Assembly: GCA_003569245.1 (NCBI GenBank)
Contig: BGOM01000008.1
Span: 1 to 64,000 of the forward strand
Reading direction: 5' to 3'
Length of the DNA: 64,000 bases
Origin: Opitutia bacterium
GTDB lineage: Bacteria; Verrucomicrobiota; Verrucomicrobiia; Opitutales; UBA953
Part shown: positions 22,891-30,782 of the stretch, one piece after another
Position numbering within the stretch: the stretch's first letter is position 1
Layout: every line of letters starts with the position of its first letter
Notes under the pieces: model-generated
Database searches by the model: none
What the model was told of the DNA's origin: nothing
Seen by the model: the letters and a program-made list of their open reading frames with translations, nothing else
Program-made: the position numbers and the translations under genes

Positions 22891-22916
22891 AGAAGCCCCG
22901 GAGGTCCGGGGCTTCT
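22891..22916. terminator. Perfect 12-bp hairpin between convergent genes
   Basis: AGAAGCCCCGGA (22891-22902) is exactly repeated in complement at 22905-22916 with almost no loop (effectively 11 bp and 4 bases). It lies between the LamG gene and the convergent helical-protein gene. No long T tract follows on either strand, so it is a bidirectional terminator or transcript-end stabiliser. Confidence 0.75.
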
Positions 22917-22933: not shown

Positions 22934-23458
22934 TTACTTCGCGGCGGGCGACGGCTCGGGCTTCTTCTCCTCGGTCTTCGCCTTGTCGCCGAAGGGGAAG
23001 GGCTTGGCCGGCGTCTTGGCGTCGGCCCCTTTCTTGCCGGCACCGGCTTCCTTGGCCCGCTCCTTCAGCTTGTCCTCCATCGCATCGGTGATCTTCTCGA
23101 TGGTCTCCTTGGACAGGGAAGGCTCGGCCTTGGCGATGGCGGCACGGAGCGCCTTGCGGACATCCTCCGCGAGGGCCTCCAGCTCGGTACGGGAGTCCTT
23201 CTTCTCGGCGGCGGTGGCGAATTCCATGCTCTTGCGCTTCTCGAGCTGCTTCTCGCGGGCGGCCTTGACGGCCTCGTCCAGCTGGGCCTTGGCGAAGGCG
23301 GCGCGGAACTTGGCCATATCCTCCTTCGCGACGCCCTCGATGTCGGGCACGAGCGCGGCGCGTCCGGCCTTCGCGGACTTGCCTGGCTTGGTCTCGGGGC
23401 TGTCGGCGGCCGGCAGCGCGAGGGTGGCGGTGAGGAGGAAGAGGAGGGTGGTTTTCAT
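22934..23458 (-). CDS. Secreted helical-module protein (KADPSL-module family), one module
   Basis: 174 residues, no known family that I recognise. Signal peptide (1-19), short linker, then one helical module of about 100 residues starting VPDIEGVAKEDMAKFRAAF and including AAIAKAEPSLSKETIEKI, and a Lys/Pro-rich tail with TPAKPFPFGD. The module is clearly shared with the two upstream genes and the one at 24841-25341. It is almost all helix, highly charged, Ala-rich and free of Cys. It is the last of three genes with gaps of 7 and 4 bases, so they form one operon. The start at 23458 is set by the signal peptide. A role in the envelope as a spacer or ligand-binding helical rod is a guess. Confidence 0.75.
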   Translation of the reverse strand: MKTTLLFLLTATLALPAADSPETKPGKSAKAGRAALVPDIEGVAKEDMAKFRAAFAKAQLDEAVKAAREKQLEKRKSMEFATAAEKKDSRTELEALAEDVRKALRAAIAKAEPSLSKETIEKITDAMEDKLKERAKEAGAGKKGADAKTPAKPFPFGDKAKTEEKKPEPSPAAK

Positions 23459-23465
23459 GGGAAGA

Positions 23466-23867
23466 TTATTTACGCGGCTTGCCTTTGGCCTTCGGGGCGG
23501 GTGTCGTCCCGCTTTGCCGGGCAGCTTGGATGTAGCCATCGAGGAAGGCGGACGGCAGGTCCGGATCCGCCTTGAGCATGGCGTTGCGGTAAGCGGTGAG
23601 CAGGTCGGCCTGGGCGCTCTTGGCGCTCATCCGCAGGCTGGTTTGCTCATCCTTGGCGGCGGCTTGGGTCTGCGTCCGCAACTCCTTGACCCGGGCTTCG
23701 GCCGACTTCACGGCGTCGGCTTGGGCGGCGACTGCGAAGGCAGAGGCGAGCCGCGCGCTCTCCGCTTCGGTGGGCTTGGCCGGCGCAGGCTTGGTCGCGC
23801 CCGTCGCGGCGTAGACGCCGACGGCGAGTAACAGCAGGGGGAGGAGGCGAGGCTTGGCCGGCTCCAT
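23466..23867 (-). CDS. Secreted helical-module protein, divergent member
   Basis: 133 residues: an N-terminal hydrophobic signal or anchor (LLPLLLLAVGVYAATG), a short linker, and one helical module that keeps the family frame (ESARLASAFAVAAQADAVKS, then AYRNAMLKADPDLPSAFLD) but lacks the DVEGV opening. The KADPDL motif aligns with KADPSL of its neighbours. The tail is short and basic (KAKGKPRK). It sits between two members of the same family, 4 and 7 bases away. It is the most divergent copy. No function can be assigned. Confidence 0.65.
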   Translation of the reverse strand: MEPAKPRLLPLLLLAVGVYAATGATKPAPAKPTEAESARLASAFAVAAQADAVKSAEARVKELRTQTQAAAKDEQTSLRMSAKSAQADLLTAYRNAMLKADPDLPSAFLDGYIQAARQSGTTPAPKAKGKPRK

Positions 23868-23871
23868 GGTG

Positions 23872-24738
23872 TTAGCGGCCTGCCGGTCGCATCCGCGACT
23901 CGACGACCTCGCTGATCTTGGCGATGACCTCGGCGCTCAGGCTCGGGTCGGCCTTGCCGATGGCCGCGCGGGTGGTCTCGCGGATCTTGGCAGTGAGGGC
24001 TTCGAACTCTTCCTTCATGTCGGCCTTTTCCTTGCCGGAGAGGAACTGGGTGTTGGCGCCCATCTTCTTGAGTTTCTCGCGGGCCGCGACGACCTCCGGG
24101 TCGCGGAAGGACTTCATCGCGGCGACGCGGAACTTGGCCATGTCCTCGGCGCTGACGCCTTCGACGTCGGCCAGCAGGACGGAGAGGTTGGGTTGGGCGG
24201 GTCGCCTGGGTTCGCCGCTCTTGGGCGCGGGTGCGCCCGCCGCCGGCGTCTTCGCCTCGTCCCCGAAAGGGAACGGCTTCGCCGGCGTCGCCGCCGCCTT
24301 GGCCTCCTTGGCCATGGTTTCCTTCATCCGGGCGCGCGCCTTATCCTCGAAGGCCTCGATGACTTTGGCGATCGTCTCCTTCGCGAGGGTCGGATCCGCC
24401 TTGGCGTACGCGGCCATCAGGGCGTCGCGGTTGAGCTGGGTCACGCCTTCGAACTCGCCGCGCATCTCCCTTTTTTCCTCGGCTCCGGCGAATTCGGCCC
24501 GCTGGCGCAGCTCGGCCAGCTTGGCCTTGGCCGCGATGACCGCGGGGTCCTGCTGGGCCCGCGGAGAGGCCGCGCGGAACTTCATCATCTGCTCCTGGCT
24601 GACGCCTTCCACGTCCGGGATCAGTTTCTCGAGCATCGCGCGGTTGGGTGCCGGCCGGTCCGATCCAGGCTTGGCGGCGGGTTCCGCGGCCGAAAGCGCG
24701 CCGGCGATCAGCAGCAGGGCGAGGCAGGGAGTCTTCAT
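23872..24738 (-). CDS. Secreted helical-module protein with two modules
   Basis: 288 residues. After a signal peptide (1-17) come two copies of the module, residues about 37-138 (IPDVEGVSQEQMMKFRAA, then KADPTLAKETIAKVIEAF) and about 185-285 (LADVEGVSAEDMAKFRVAA, then KADPSLSAEVIAKISEV). Between them is the Pro-rich linker with TPAKPFPFGD, identical in core to the tail of the gene at 22934-23458, which indicates duplication within this locus. Invariant positions are a DVEGV-like opening, FR, DPxV, and KADPxL. It is first in a three-gene operon; the terminator of the upstream one-gene unit lies just before it. The start at 24738 (MKTPCLALLL) is chosen for the signal peptide rather than the ATG at 24759. 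Confidence 0.75.
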   Translation of the reverse strand: MKTPCLALLLIAGALSAAEPAAKPGSDRPAPNRAMLEKLIPDVEGVSQEQMMKFRAASPRAQQDPAVIAAKAKLAELRQRAEFAGAEEKREMRGEFEGVTQLNRDALMAAYAKADPTLAKETIAKVIEAFEDKARARMKETMAKEAKAAATPAKPFPFGDEAKTPAAGAPAPKSGEPRRPAQPNLSVLLADVEGVSAEDMAKFRVAAMKSFRDPEVVAAREKLKKMGANTQFLSGKEKADMKEEFEALTAKIRETTRAAIGKADPSLSAEVIAKISEVVESRMRPAGR

Positions 24739-24788
24739 CTTCTGCAACTTTAACCCCATGGACCGTCCAAAGTTCGACCGGTAAGGCC

Positions 24789-24816
24789 AAAAAAAGACCC
24801 CGGCGAACCGGGGTCT
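24789..24816 (-). terminator. Rho-independent terminator of the 24841-25341 gene
   Basis: On the minus strand AGACCCCGG (24816-24808), loop TTCG and CCGGGGTCT (24803-24795) form a strong stem followed by a run of seven T (24795-24789). It separates the one-module gene from the three-gene operon that follows. Confidence 0.92.
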
Positions 24817-24840
24817 GTCTTCGAGCCTGTAATCCGAGGA

Positions 24841-25341
24841 TTACTTGGCTTCAGGCTTGGCCTCGGGCTTGCCTTCCGGCCGGCCCTTGCCTTCGCCGCC
24901 CTTGCCGCCCTTGGCGCGATTAGCCATCGCTTCCTGGGCCTTCTTCACGACTTCGGCGAGCTCGGGGTGGGCCTTGACGATGGCGGCGTTGACGGCTTCG
25001 TTCAGGGCCTTGTAGGCCTTGGCGCCTTCTTCGCGGGCGGCCTTCTTGGCGTCTTCGTCCTTGGCTTCGGCGCCCTTGGCGCGGGCGGCGGCGGCGGCAT
25101 CGGCGAGCTTCTTGATCTCCGGGTCTTCCATGGCGGCCTTGCGGGCGTCGCCGAGCTTCTTCATGTCCTCAGGGGACACGCCGGGGATCTGGAAACCGCC
25201 TTTGCCTTTGCCTTCGCCCTTGCCCTTGCCTTCGCCCTTGGGGGCGTCGGGCTTCTTGGCTTCGCCGCCGGCGGGGGCGTCGGCCGCGATGAGACCGGCC
25301 GTGGTGATCAGGGCCAGGAGGAGGGGGAACTTGAGTTTCAT
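24841..25341 (-). CDS. Secreted Lys/Gly/Ala-rich helical-module protein
   Basis: 166 residues: signal peptide (1-20), a Gly/Lys spacer (GEGKGKGEGKGKGG), one helical module beginning IPGVSPEDMKKLGDARKA with KAHPELAEVVKKAQEAM where others have KADPSL, and a repetitive basic tail (KPEAKPEAK). It is a fourth member of the family encoded next door, transcribed on its own with a strong terminator. The composition, rich in Lys, Ala, Glu and Gly, suggests an extended, charged, secreted protein. Function unknown. Confidence 0.75.
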   Translation of the reverse strand: MKLKFPLLLALITTAGLIAADAPAGGEAKKPDAPKGEGKGKGEGKGKGGFQIPGVSPEDMKKLGDARKAAMEDPEIKKLADAAAAARAKGAEAKDEDAKKAAREEGAKAYKALNEAVNAAIVKAHPELAEVVKKAQEAMANRAKGGKGGEGKGRPEGKPEAKPEAK

Positions 25342-25466: not shown

Positions 25467-26237
25467 ATGTCCCCCCTGATCCTGCATGTCCCGCACGCCT
25501 CCCGCCTGATTCCCGCCGCCGACCGGGGGGATTTCCTCCTGAGCGACGGGGAACTCGCCGCGGAGGGTCGGCGGTTGGTCGATGCGCACACCGATACGCT
25601 CTTCGGGGCCGAGTGCTGGCCGGGGGCGGTGCTCGCGGCGAAGGTCTCGCGCCTGGTCGTCGACGTGGAGCGTTTCGCGGACGACGCCCGCGAGCCGTGC
25701 GCCCGCGTCGGCATGGGCGCGACCTACGTGCGCACGACCGAGGGACGGCCGCTGCGCGCCCTGTCGGCGGCCCGCCGCGCGGCGTTATTGGAAAGTTACT
25801 ACGTACCGCATCATGCGGCCGCCGACCGGCTCGCGGCGGAGCGGTTGGCGGTCCGGGGGCGCTGCCTGGTGCTCGACGCGCACAGCTACCCGCTGGGCCC
25901 GCTGCCGACGGAGGTGGCCGCCGGGCGGCCGGAGATCGGGCTGGGCACCGACGCCGTCCACACGTGTCCCGAGCTCCGGGATCTGCTCGCCGGTTTCTTC
26001 CGCGCCCGAGGTTACGAGGTCGCCGTGGATGCGCCGTTCAGCGGCGCCTTCGTCCCGAGCGCCTGCTTCGGCGCGGATCCGCGTTGTCAGGCGATCATGG
26101 TGGAGGTGCGTCGCGACCTCTATATGGACGAGTCCACGGGGGAGCGGCACGGCGGTTTTGAGCGCGTGCGCGCGGATCTGGTCGCGCTTCAGCCGCGGTT
26201 GGCCGACTTCGCCGTCCGCGCGGTCTGGCCTACCTAG
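25467..26237 (+). CDS. N-formylglutamate amidohydrolase family protein
   Basis: 256 residues, cytoplasmic, no signal peptide. Family hallmarks are ILHVPHASRLIP at the start, a VDAHTDTLF segment with metal-site Asp/His, RLVVDVERFADD, DAHSYPLGP, and MVEVRRDLYMDE near the end. The family contains N-formylglutamate deformylases of histidine degradation (HutG) and relatives of unknown substrate. No other histidine-degradation gene is in the window, so the substrate stays open. The ATG at 25467 is chosen because homology starts two residues later. Its 3' end overlaps the convergent gene at 26230-26805 by 8 bases. Confidence 0.85.
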   Translation: MSPLILHVPHASRLIPAADRGDFLLSDGELAAEGRRLVDAHTDTLFGAECWPGAVLAAKVSRLVVDVERFADDAREPCARVGMGATYVRTTEGRPLRALSAARRAALLESYYVPHHAAADRLAAERLAVRGRCLVLDAHSYPLGPLPTEVAAGRPEIGLGTDAVHTCPELRDLLAGFFRARGYEVAVDAPFSGAFVPSACFGADPRCQAIMVEVRRDLYMDESTGERHGGFERVRADLVALQPRLADFAVRAVWPT

Positions 26238-26805
26238 GCTCGGGCAGGGTGGTGGGGTGCCCGGCGGCGGCCAGCTCCGCCGCGAACTCCGACATGGCCT
26301 CGGTCCACATGGCGCGGATCCGCGGCAATTGCCCGTCGCGTTCCTGCTCGCTACGTTCGGGCCAGGCCTCCTCGAGCGCCTTCCATTCCTCGATCAAGGC
26401 CTTGAGGCGCGGTCGTTCCAGCCAGCGTTTGGCCACAGGGTCGAAGGTCTCCGCGCCCAGGCGGGCCTTCTCCGTCTTCAGGAATTCGCCCCACTGCTTG
26501 ACGACCTCGTCCTTCTGCGCTTTCGCCGAGCGGTGGTCGGGCAGGTGGTTCTCGGCCCGATCGAGTTTCAGGCCGGCGGTGCTGCGGACCCCGGTCGACG
26601 GGCCGGACGACGGAGCCGTGCGGGACGTCGCCGGGCGGAGCGCCGCGGCGGAAGGTTCCGGCGGGCGCGGGTCGACGCGTCGGGTCAGCCAGAAGATGGC
26701 AAGAAGCAAGCCGCCGACCGCGAGGCATACCATGAACCAGCCTCGCCGGCTCAAGGGACGACCGCTCGATTCTTGCGGTCGATGGTCGGTCGGTGGTAGA
26801 CGCAT
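26230..26805 (-). CDS. Membrane-anchored protein, paralogue of the next gene
   Basis: 191 residues, unknown family. A basic N-terminus leads into one membrane helix (WFMVCLAVGGLLLAIFWL, about 24-41), followed by a Ser/Pro-rich linker, the motif TAGLKLDRAENHLPD, and a helical domain (KDEVVKQWGEFLK, LKALIEEWKALEEAWPERSEQE, MWTEAMSEFAAELAAAG). The gene upstream encodes the same layout with GLKLDKSANVIPD and ELEAKWPKATDDEKA, so the two are paralogues. They are 9 bases apart and share a promoter. The protein should be anchored in the inner membrane with the domain outside. Its end overlaps the convergent amidohydrolase gene by 8 bases. Confidence 0.7.
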   Translation of the reverse strand: MRLPPTDHRPQESSGRPLSRRGWFMVCLAVGGLLLAIFWLTRRVDPRPPEPSAAALRPATSRTAPSSGPSTGVRSTAGLKLDRAENHLPDHRSAKAQKDEVVKQWGEFLKTEKARLGAETFDPVAKRWLERPRLKALIEEWKALEEAWPERSEQERDGQLPRIRAMWTEAMSEFAAELAAAGHPTTLPEPR

Positions 26806-26814
26806 TGTCCGGCG

Positions 26815-27495
26815 TCACATGATGATGACCGGGGCGGCCGCCGGTGCGGCGGGCGCGGCGGGCGGCGGGGCGGGTTGGTTTTCCGCCGGCACGGAGAGGG
26901 TCCCGCTGTTGATGATGACGGTGCCTTGGCTGTTGCCGACCGTTAGCCCGCCGGCGCTCCCGCCCGCCTGGCGCGCCGCCTCCGCGCGGACCATGCCGAG
27001 GCCCTGGGCGCGGATCGCCTCCATCTGTCCCATGATCGCGGCCTTTTCGTCATCGGTCGCCTTCGGCCACTTGGCCTCGAGTTCGCGCGTCTGCTGGAAC
27101 ATGGCCCGGAATTGCTCGTTCTGGAAGAGCGAGCGCATCACGGCCCCCGTGCGCTCGCGGTCGCCCTGGAAGATTTCCTCAAACTGCTTGCGACCGTCGT
27201 CGCGCCAGTTCCGGAACTTGGATTCGAGCGCCTCCTTGGCCGTCAGGTCGCGGGAGCGCGCCTCCTTGTCCAGGTCGGGGATGACGTTGGCGCTCTTGTC
27301 GAGCTTCAGGCCCTTGGCGCTGCGCACCACGGCGCCGGGACGTTGCTCGCCCGCGGAGCCGTTGCCGGCGGCGGCGGGTTGGGCGACGGGTCGGGCGGCG
27401 GTCGGCGCGGGGTCGGCGAAGAAACGAGCGATCAGGGCGACGCCGCCGGCGACGCAGATGACCGTGAGGACGAGGGTGGTCTTGGACGTCTTCAT
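26815..27495 (-). CDS. Membrane-anchored helical protein, paralogue of the downstream gene
   Basis: 226 residues, unknown family. An N-terminal membrane helix (LVLTVICVAGGVALIARFF, about 8-26), a linker with KGLKLDKSANVIPDLDKE, then a charged helical domain (about 80-175; FRNWRDDGRKQFEEIFQGD, FRAMFQQTRELEAKWPKA). The end differs from the paralogue: a beta-like stretch TVIINSGTLSV and a Pro/Ala-rich tail (PAPPPAAPAAPAAAPVIIM) that may cross peptidoglycan or sit in the envelope. It is the first gene of a two-gene operon, divergent from the hydroxyproline operon. A -10-like box lies 6 bases before its ATG. The helical domain recalls the modules at 22934-25341 in style, but I cannot show common descent. 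Confidence 0.7.
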   Translation of the reverse strand: MKTSKTTLVLTVICVAGGVALIARFFADPAPTAARPVAQPAAAGNGSAGEQRPGAVVRSAKGLKLDKSANVIPDLDKEARSRDLTAKEALESKFRNWRDDGRKQFEEIFQGDRERTGAVMRSLFQNEQFRAMFQQTRELEAKWPKATDDEKAAIMGQMEAIRAQGLGMVRAEAARQAGGSAGGLTVGNSQGTVIINSGTLSVPAENQPAPPPAAPAAPAAAPVIIM

Positions 27496-27617: not shown

Positions 27618-28580
27618 ATGGCTGCAGCCCAACCCATGCCTGCCGGATCGGTCCGGGTCATCGACTCCCACACGGGCGGTGAGCCGACCCGCGTCGTCGT
27701 CGCCGGGGGGCCGGATCTCGGGGGTGGGACGGTCCGGGATCGTCTGGAGCGCTTCCGCCGCGACCACGACCGGTTCCGCTCCGCGGTCGTCAACGAGCCC
27801 CGCGGCTCCGACGTGATGGTCGGGGCGTTGCTTGTCCCGCCGCACGACCCCTCCTGCCGCTTCGGGGTCATCTTTTTCAACAATGTCGGCACCCTCTGGA
27901 TGTGCGGGCACGGTACCATCGGTCTGGTCGCGACGCTCGCCCACCTCGGCCTGATCGGCCCGGGGGAGGTCCGCCTCGACACCGCCGTGGGCCCCGTGGC
28001 CGCGACCTTGCACGCGGACGGCACCGTCACGCTCGCGAATGTTCCCTCCTACCGCCATGCCAGGCAGGTCGCGGTCGAGGTGCCGGGCTTGGGGGTCGTC
28101 CGCGGCGATATCGCCTGGGGCGGCAACTGGTTCTTCCTCGTCGAGCAGCATGGCCTGACCGTCGCCTTGGAGCACGTCGAGGCGCTGACCGATTACGCCT
28201 GGAAGGTCCGTCAGGCCCTCGGCGCCCAAGGCATCGTCGGCGCGGACGGCGGCGAGATCGATCACATCGAACTTTTCGCACCGACCCCGACGGCGGATAG
28301 CCGGAATTTCGTGCTCTGCCCCGGCAAGGCCTACGACCGTTCGCCCTGCGGCACCGGCACCAGCGCGAAGGTCGCGTGCCTCGCCGCGGACGGCAAACTC
28401 GCCGAAGGCGCGACCTGGAAGCAGGAGAGCGTCATCGGCAGCCATTTCCTCGCCTCCTACCGCCGGCTCCCGGACGGCCAGGTCCAGCCCTTGGTGACCG
28501 GCCGCGCTTTCGTCCAGGCCGACGCCACTTTCCTGTTCCATCCGGAGGACCCCTTCGCCTGGGGCATCCGTCCCGCATGA
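27618..28580 (+). CDS. 4-hydroxyproline 2-epimerase (proline racemase family)
   Basis: 320 residues, cytoplasmic. The two catalytic cysteines of the proline racemase superfamily are both present, Cys96 in MCGHGTIG and Cys244 in [11 protein letters not shown]. Two cysteines mark racemases/epimerases, whereas a Thr in place of one marks 3-hydroxyproline dehydratases. Within an operon with a D-amino-acid-type oxidase, a DapA-family deaminase and a dioxovalerate dehydrogenase, the role is epimerisation of trans-4-hydroxy-L-proline to cis-4-hydroxy-D-proline, the first step of the pathway. The stop overlaps the next start (ATGA). No regulator or transporter gene is adjacent. An internal in-frame ATG at 27636 is an alternative start. 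Confidence 0.92.
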
Positions 28581-29830
28581 GCGGGCCGGTCGTCATCGTC
28601 GGCGGCGGGATCGTCGGCCTGAGCGCCGCCTACGAGCTCCTGCGTCGCGGGCGGTCCGTCGTGCTGCTGGAGAAGGGGGCCGCGGATCATGATTCCTGCT
28701 CGCTCGGCAACGCCGGGATGATCGTCCCCAGTCACTTCGTGCCGCTCGCCGCGCCCGGCATGGTGGCGCTCGGCCTCAAGTGGATGTTCGACCGCGAGAG
28801 CCCGTTCTGGGTCCGTCCGCGCCTCGATGCGGACCTGTTCTCGTGGGGTTGGAAGTTCTGGCGCGCCTCGACCTCGGCCCACGTCGAACGCTGCACGCCC
28901 GTGCTCCGCGACCTGAACCTGCGCAGCCGCGAGCTCTTCCTGCGCCACCGCGCCGAGCTGCCCGCCGCCTTCGACCTCGAGGACGTGGGCTTGCTCGCCT
29001 TGTGCCGCACGCAGCAGACGCTCGATCACGAGGCGGTGTTCGCCGCCAAGTCCGACGCCGTCGGCGTGCCGACCGAGGTCCTGTCGGCCGACGAGGTCCG
29101 TCGCCGCGACCCGGGCGTCGATTACGCCATCGCCGGCGCGGTGCTGTTCACGAAGGACGCGCACCTCGACCCGCGCAAGCTGGTCGCCGTCCTGACCGCG
29201 GAGGTCACCCGCCTCGGCGGCCGCATCGTCTTCGACGCCGAGGTCACGGGCTGGAAAGGGGAGGGCGACCTCCTGCGCGCGGCCGTGACCAAGCAGGGCG
29301 AGTTCGCCGGCGAGACCTTCGTGCTCGCCGCCGGTGCCTGGTCGCCCGCCGCCGCCGCCGCCCTGGGGCTGCGCCTCCCGATGCAGGCCGGCAAGGGCTA
29401 CAGCATGCGGCTGGAGCGCCCGGTCCAGCGCCCGAAGTATTGCTCGCTCCTGATGGAGGCCCGCGTCGCCGTCACCCCGATGGGCTCCGCGCTCACCGTC
29501 GGCGGCACCATGGAGATCACGGGGAACGACCTGTCCGTGAATCCCGCGCGCGTCCGCGGCATCCGCAAGGCGTTCGTCCGATACTACCCGGCGTTCAAGG
29601 AAGCCGATTTCGAAGCCGTCCCGGTCTGGTCCGGGCTCCGCCCTTGTCCGCCCGACGGCATGCCCTACCTCGGGCGCACCCGCGCCAAGCGCAACCTCGT
29701 GGTCGCCACCGGCCATTCCATGATGGGCCTGAGCCTCGGCCCCGTCACGGGCGAGATCGTCGCCCAGCTCGTCTGCGGCGAACCCACGTCCGTCGCGCTC
29801 CGCGAGGTCGACCCCGACCGCCACGCCTGA
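28577..29830 (+). CDS. FAD-dependent D-hydroxyproline dehydrogenase (DadA family)
   Basis: 417 residues. The FAD-binding motif [16 protein letters not shown] is at residues 5-20, followed by the Glu that binds ribose (LLEKG) and [11 protein letters not shown], typical of DadA-type D-amino acid dehydrogenases. The C-terminal FAD contact [16 protein letters not shown] is present. In this operon it should oxidise cis-4-hydroxy-D-proline to 1-pyrroline-4-hydroxy-2-carboxylate and pass electrons to the respiratory chain. The single-polypeptide form is used here, not the multi-subunit type. Its ATG overlaps the epimerase stop by 4 bases, so translation is coupled. Confidence 0.88.
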
Positions 29831-29855
29831 TTTTCCACCTACTATCCACCCCACC

Positions 29856-30782
29856 ATGACCACCTCCGCCTCCAAGAAAAAAGTCCGCGCCCAATGGGAA
29901 GGCGTGATCCCCGCGATCACGACCCCTTTCCGCAAGGACGGCAAGCTCGACGCCGCCGAGATCACCCGCCAGTGCCGCTGGATGGTCGACTCCGGTTGCA
30001 TCGGCATCGTCCCGTGCGGTTCGCTCGGCGAAGGCGCCACGCTGACCTACGACGAGAAGGTCGAGCTCATCCGGCTTTGCGTGAAGGCCGTGCCTGGCAC
30101 GCCGATCATCCCCGGTATCGCCTCCCTCTCCACCGCCGAGGCGATCGCCCTGGCCAGGGAATCCGAGCGCCTCGGTTGCGGCGGCCTGATGGTCCTGCCG
30201 CCCTACGTCTACAGCACCGATTGGCGCGAGATGAAGGCCCACGTCTCGGCCGTCATCGCCGCGACCAAGCTGCCGTGCATGCTCTACAACAACCCGCCGG
30301 CCTATAAGACCGACTTCCTTCCCGCCCAGATCGCCGAGCTCGCCGCGGAGCATCGCAACCTCGAGGCCGTGAAGGAATCCTCCGGCGACTCCCGTCGCGT
30401 CACCGCCATCCGCCACCTCCTCGGCGATCGCCTGACCATCCTCGTCGGCATGGATGACTGCATCCTCGAGGGCATCGCCGCCGGCGCCCGCGGCTGGATC
30501 GCCGGCCTGGTCAACGCCTTCCCGGTCGAATCCGTCGAGCTCTACGAGGCCGCGATGATCGGCGACCGCGAGACCGCGGACGAGATCTACAAGTGGTTCC
30601 TGCCGTTGCTCCGCCTCGATACCGTGCCGAAGTTCGTCCAGCACATCAAGTGGGTGCAGTCCAAGGTCCGCGGCTCCAATCCCTCGGTCCGCGGCCCGCG
30701 CCTCGCCCTCGACGGGGCCGACCTGGCCCTGGCTGCCAAGACCCTGCAGGTGGCCCTGAAGAACCGTCCTAAGATCAAGTAA
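29856..30782 (+). CDS. DapA-family 1-pyrroline-4-hydroxy-2-carboxylate deaminase
   Basis: 308 residues, a TIM-barrel enzyme of the dihydrodipicolinate synthase/N-acetylneuraminate lyase family. The Schiff-base lysine is Lys173 (EAVKESSGD) and the catalytic tyrosine is Tyr144 (CMLYNNPPAY). GSLGEGATLTYDEK near residue 55 is the carboxylate-binding loop. DapA itself would sit in a lysine pathway; here, between D-hydroxyproline dehydrogenase and the dioxovalerate dehydrogenase, the product is most likely 2,5-dioxopentanoate from pyrroline-hydroxy-carboxylate. It starts 25 bases after the dehydrogenase and ends one base before the aldehyde dehydrogenase start. No Shine-Dalgarno sequence is seen. 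Confidence 0.9.
   Translation: MTTSASKKKVRAQWEGVIPAITTPFRKDGKLDAAEITRQCRWMVDSGCIGIVPCGSLGEGATLTYDEKVELIRLCVKAVPGTPIIPGIASLSTAEAIALARESERLGCGGLMVLPPYVYSTDWREMKAHVSAVIAATKLPCMLYNNPPAYKTDFLPAQIAELAAEHRNLEAVKESSGDSRRVTAIRHLLGDRLTILVGMDDCILEGIAAGARGWIAGLVNAFPVESVELYEAAMIGDRETADEIYKWFLPLLRLDTVPKFVQHIKWVQSKVRGSNPSVRGPRLALDGADLALAAKTLQVALKNRPKIK

Follow-up and report, generated by a model that had tools for sequence, protein, structure and literature searches.

What kind of protein is encoded by four adjacent genes on the minus strand of the window (the whole stretch of Opitutia DNA analysed, 64,000 nucleotides long), and is the module from which these genes are built related to any known protein? 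The genes encode secreted proteins that carry five copies of one module of approximately 105 residues. The initial annotation saw in them a lineage-specific secreted rod or binding protein of no named family.

Gene 1 (22934-23458, minus strand) encodes a one-module protein of 174 amino acids with the module at 23045-23368 and the signal peptide MKTTLLFLLTATLALPAAD. Its start is placed at 23458, a longer open reading frame to 23539 being an upstream extension only, and its orthologues are present genus-wide. Gene 2 (23466-23867, minus strand) encodes the most divergent one-module protein, of 133 amino acids, gene 3 (23872-24738, minus strand) a protein of 288 amino acids with two modules (24316-24630 and 23875-24186), and gene 4 (24841-25341, minus strand) a one-module protein of 166 amino acids with Gly/Lys-rich flanks and the module at 24892-25212. 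A hydrophobic, signal-like N-terminus was judged by inspection to be present in all four; by this reading the proteins carry export signals, and their final location would probably be the periplasm.

Genes 3, 2 and 1 follow each other at distances of 4 and 7 bases. Behind gene 4, a hairpin scan returned a terminator-like hairpin with a 9-pair stem and a T run (24795-24816, minus strand); the scan as a whole yielded no more hairpins than chance, and the position of this one is right for a gene 4 terminator, so that gene 4 probably has a transcript separate from that of genes 3-2-1. Between gene 1 and a convergent LamG-like gene lies the perfect inverted repeat GAAGCCCCGGA-GG-TCCGGGGCTTC (22892-22915, not assigned to a strand), which was read directly off the sequence, is absent from the list of the terminator scan and, from its position, is likely a terminator.

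Homology of the module copies is evident from pairwise local alignments, scored against 500 shuffles. The gene 1 module and both gene 3 modules, as well as the gene 3 modules between themselves, align at z 27-29, the gene 4 module aligns with those of genes 1 and 3 at z 7-9, and the gene 2 module at z 5-6; the direct local alignment of gene 2 with gene 4 is not significant (z 1.3). Since gene 2 is found by profiles from which it was excluded—at E 2.3e-6 by a four-copy profile and at E 6.4e-12 by a profile of 62 modules—the count of five modules in four genes is right. The modules of genes 1 and 4 were likewise recovered by module profile search (E 1.6e-36 and 8.6e-26, respectively). Reading frames, alignment scores and profile searches thus confirm the initial description of signal peptide-bearing genes with one, one, two and one module copies, and support the claim of one homologous, secreted helical module that grew by duplication. 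The proposed common motifs fared unevenly. While KA[DEH]PxL is found in all five copies, for the DVEGV opening three copies have D[VI]EGV and gene 4 has PGV, FR is confined to the copies of genes 1 and 3, and DPxV (DPxV/DPEI) is missing from genes 1 and 2, which have DEAV and ADAV instead.

A further conserved element, KPFPFG, is encoded in the tail of gene 1 (22989-23005, minus strand) and in the linker of gene 3 (24263-24279, minus strand). Among the fetched loci, KPFPF[GA] occurs 24 times, in every case shortly after a module and nearly always inside TPxKPFPFG[DE]; at the DNA level, 33 matches were obtained in 55 genomes, of which about 30 lie within arrays and about three outside (G039:C4, G027:C55, G052:C3). 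The identity of TPAKPFPFGD in two of the genes had been offered as evidence for duplication of the array. However, because the motif is conserved throughout the genus and its synonymous codons differ between genes 1 and 3, it is not the trace of a recent duplication. Embedded in an otherwise loose Lys/Ala-rich tail, TPxKPFPFG[DE] rather resembles a short, conserved peptide for binding.

Within the genus, a survey of Verrucomicrobiota genomes returned module matches for 51 of 55 genomes, and the module mostly occupies the same locus; the four genomes without a match are 0.9-1.3 Mb in size, which is small for the genus. Three sister genera show weaker matches (13 of 16 genomes) and a fourth shows none (eight genomes); outside the family, matches are scattered and partial only, and the remainder of the phylum essentially lacks the module. 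These counts support a module largely restricted to one genus, as the lineage-specific part of the initial proposal had it. The relatives with names are Opitutae metagenome assemblies from lakes and fresh water (fresh water as judged from the names), and a literature search for an earlier description of such a secreted module family in Opitutae yielded nothing relevant. In a tree of 56 modules, in which many deep forks lack resolution, modules from the same position cluster together across species (for example gene 3 N-module, gene 3 C-module, gene 1, gene 4); hence the duplications are old and precede the divergence of the species compared. Gene 2 is a long-branch copy to which nothing else in the genus is closely related, and in a 92%-identical relative (G014) it is absent, with a 41-base spacer at this position (window 23466-23867 versus L002 2365-2409); this difference would reflect either a recent gain or a recent loss of a whole module gene.

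The family extends past 25341 to two further genes upstream. These genes, n5 (26230-26805, minus strand) and n6 (26815-27495, minus strand), encode signal-anchored helical proteins that are paralogous to one another (z 8.2) and remotely related to the module. The n6 protein, with its module-like part around 27004-27153, scores E 0.037 against the module profile, orthologues of n5/n6 from other genomes match it at about 1e-5 to 1e-6, and the n5/n6 family profile aligns with module helices 1 to 3 at P 1.7e-7 (probability 94%, 0 of 150 block shuffles). On account of this remote kinship, the cluster is counted as six genes, interrupted by an opposite-strand N-formylglutamate amidohydrolase gene. 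A similarity of the n5/n6 family to Metal_resist was set aside as driven by transmembrane segments. Both proteins share an S-A-x-GLKLD-x-x-x-N-x-x-PD motif, and their genes are syntenic in most genomes. In most of 20 loci, the array is flanked on one side by ApbE/FMN-binding, FAD-dependent oxidoreductase and LamG-like genes, and on the other by the amidohydrolase and n5/n6 genes. Next to these genes (27618-30782, plus strand), reading of the open reading frames indicates proline racemase-like, D-amino acid oxidase-like and dihydrodipicolinate synthase-like genes, a set typical of hydroxyproline catabolism. Elsewhere in the same genome, weak module-like matches (G000:C19:177862-178503, E 1e-4, and G000:C5:88585-88776, E 0.003) are possibly further distant relatives.

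As to the identity of the module, scans of the four proteins against Pfam and NCBIfam gave no match over the cut-off, which agrees with its having been called unnamed. Metal_resist (PF13801) does not exceed the curated Pfam score in the four proteins or anywhere in the genome, and a search of the genome at E 0.1 gave none for LTXXQ (PF07813); one related module protein matches Metal_resist at E 2e-4, which is below the Pfam cut-off. Ordinary secreted proteins of the Metal_resist/LTXXQ-like kind exist in other families of the order (L058 1426-2022, L067 1378-1995), while this genome has none above the cut-off. Matches to UPF0449, PRP1_N and KinB_sensor were discarded as scattered helices in few members, as were the PDB sequence-profile matches to 2vpn (a TRAP binding protein, E 6e-4), apolipoprotein and prefoldin, which concern local helices in different regions. 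A degenerate-pattern search of the genome contigs based on the module alignment failed for lack of a sufficiently conserved stretch; with a single protein it returned three loci. The absence of an accepted family match, the merely local PDB sequence matches, the Ala/Lys/Glu-rich composition of the module and the confinement of strong matches to one genus would all suit an unrelated, lineage-specific four-helix secreted family with a structural or surface-binding role, in which any likeness to CnrX, ZraP or Spy reflects common helical-hairpin geometry.

An AlphaFold model built from 62 modules shows four helices (pLDDT 86.9, pTM 0.75), in the order of a short helix with a GVSxED opening, a DPxVxAA helix, a long third helix and, after a KADPSLSxE turn, the fourth; the two-module protein was predicted as two such four-helix units joined by a low-confidence linker. 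The model thus shows a compact module, about 105 residues long, with linkers that are flexible and of low confidence, and not a continuous rod. This speaks against the rod proposed initially, and likewise against the reading as an unrelated family; the secreted and lineage-restricted character of the proteins stands, and a binding function is possible.

The hypothesis of a relationship to CnrX, ZraP, Spy and CpxP had been stated before the fold results were obtained. In a Foldseek search of the module model against 350,542 PDB chains, CnrX occupies ranks 1 to 8, weakly at E 0.29-0.97, no match lying below E 0.001; CnrX and ZraP are also among the fold matches of the two-module model, and a search of the viral BFVD gave no match below E 0.6. 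Upon structural realignment, ZraP ranks first, in a near tie with other helical chains, for both the module model (Z 6.0, 4.5 Å over 74) and the gene 3 model (Z 6.3). With the module model, CnrX reaches Z 5.5 (3.9 Å over 87), level with RicA (Z 5.9) and the N-terminal domains of spidroins (Z 5.4); no Z exceeds 8. Spy and CpxP structures are not among the fold matches listed, which is counted neither for nor against the hypothesis. Helical bundles often match by chance at such Foldseek E and Z values. The scores would, therefore, also be expected of an unrelated family, whereas the filling of all top eight ranks by CnrX speaks against one.

Profile comparison provided an independent test. Against 26 Verrucomicrobiota Metal_resist proteins, the module profile aligns at P 4e-4 over 88 columns, a score reached by one block shuffle in 200 and by none in 300; a smaller, untrimmed alignment of 16 proteins gave a weaker result (P 0.002 over 48 columns). 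The alignment is in register at both ends: GVSxED meets LTPEQ, and DPSLSxExxxK meets LTPEQxxKL, with the Q of LTxxQ not being conserved in the modules. A profile of 16 of these Metal_resist proteins recovers CnrX (6e-18), Spy (4e-12), CpxP (1e-7) and ZraP (7e-6), in addition to NccX, from the PDB, which ties the Metal_resist set to solved structures. This in-register match beyond shuffles weighs against an unrelated family, which we consider possible but not probable. It also sets Metal_resist apart from YlbF (PF06133), the other helical family with some claim to the module. Descent from YlbF/RicA-type proteins that gained a signal peptide would accord with the Z score of RicA, with profile matches to RicA and YmcA at E 0.1-0.5 and with a Com_YlbF match (E 0.0019) in one of 62 members; yet the corresponding profile-profile score covers 32 columns only and is reached by 24 of 300 shuffles, so that the family was rejected and such an origin is very improbable.

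If the CnrX superfamily is the nearest relative, the modules could be CnrX-like periplasmic sensors of metal or stress that control a membrane anti-sigma factor. CnrX is indeed the best fold match, and some orthologues of the module proteins look membrane-anchored (MKQLFPLLLAAAVGSAATYF). However, metal sensing by CnrX depends on Met123 and metal ligands (PMC7689651), whereas the modules contain 0.3% His and 0.2% Cys, neither of which is enriched in any column. Metal sensing is disfavoured because of this near absence of His and Cys and of any conserved His column, and was rejected; in addition, the flanking genes are metabolic, and the neighbours read include neither a sigma nor an anti-sigma gene. 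A sensor of this type is, hence, very unlikely, if slightly less so than a YlbF origin.

Taken together, we favour, with a probability of roughly one half, the reading that the module family comprises divergent, duplicated and metal-free Spy/CpxP-like periplasmic proteins that bind clients or partners. Membership of the CnrX/ZraP/Spy/CpxP superfamily is likely, and the modules would work in the manner of its members; since Pfam cut-offs are not reached and metal ligands are lacking, they are not assigned to a named family. Spy is a secreted four-helix dimer whose positively charged cradle binds unfolded clients (PMC8144458). A comparable binding role fits the exported four-helix units and the basic mature proteins (pI 9.3-9.9), whose charge resides mostly in the tails, the modules alone being near neutral to weakly basic. 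According to this Spy/CpxP-like reading, each module would fold like a domain of the superfamily, would probably dimerise, and would bind either polypeptide clients or a partner in the membrane, with neither ATP nor metal, as do Spy and CpxP. Duplication would have given rise to one- and two-module as well as soluble and membrane-anchored forms, and the TPxKPFPFG[DE] tail may dock a common partner. A chaperone or adaptor role is a guess by analogy, and the locus shows no link to stress regulation. More far-reaching, and in our view doubtful, is the idea that freshwater Opitutae possess, in the genus-wide six-gene locus, a new periplasmic system that serves proteostasis or acts as an adaptor, in which metal-free Spy-like modules, some of them paired, share TPxKPFPFG[DE] as a docking peptide for one envelope partner. 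To our knowledge, Spy, CpxP and CnrX have been studied almost exclusively in Proteobacteria; if correct, the favoured reading would show how the fold diversifies into client or partner binding in small-genome freshwater Verrucomicrobiota. The array defines a distinct family that can be given a name and that carries a conserved peptide motif, and CnrX/ZraP/Spy/CpxP is its nearest fold and profile lead, which the initial annotation had missed.

Compared with known systems, the modules resemble CnrX/NccX (Metal_resist) in a predicted four-helix, probably periplasmic domain of about 110 residues and in end motifs that align in register with Metal_resist proteins, but they lack metal ligands, stay below the Pfam cut-off, are duplicated in tandem within and between genes, and have no sigma/anti-sigma genes in sight near the array. 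ZraP gives the best structural realignment for both models; unlike ZraP, the modules have no Cys/His metal-binding motif, and no two-component system is seen adjoining the array. With Spy/CpxP (LTXXQ), to which they are tied only via the Metal_resist profile, they have in common that they are small secreted helical proteins with two short motifs, one before helix 1 and one before helix 4; in contrast to Spy/CpxP, these motifs read VSxED and LSxE in place of LTxxQ, and the proteins possess long low-complexity Lys-rich tails and occur in two-module forms.
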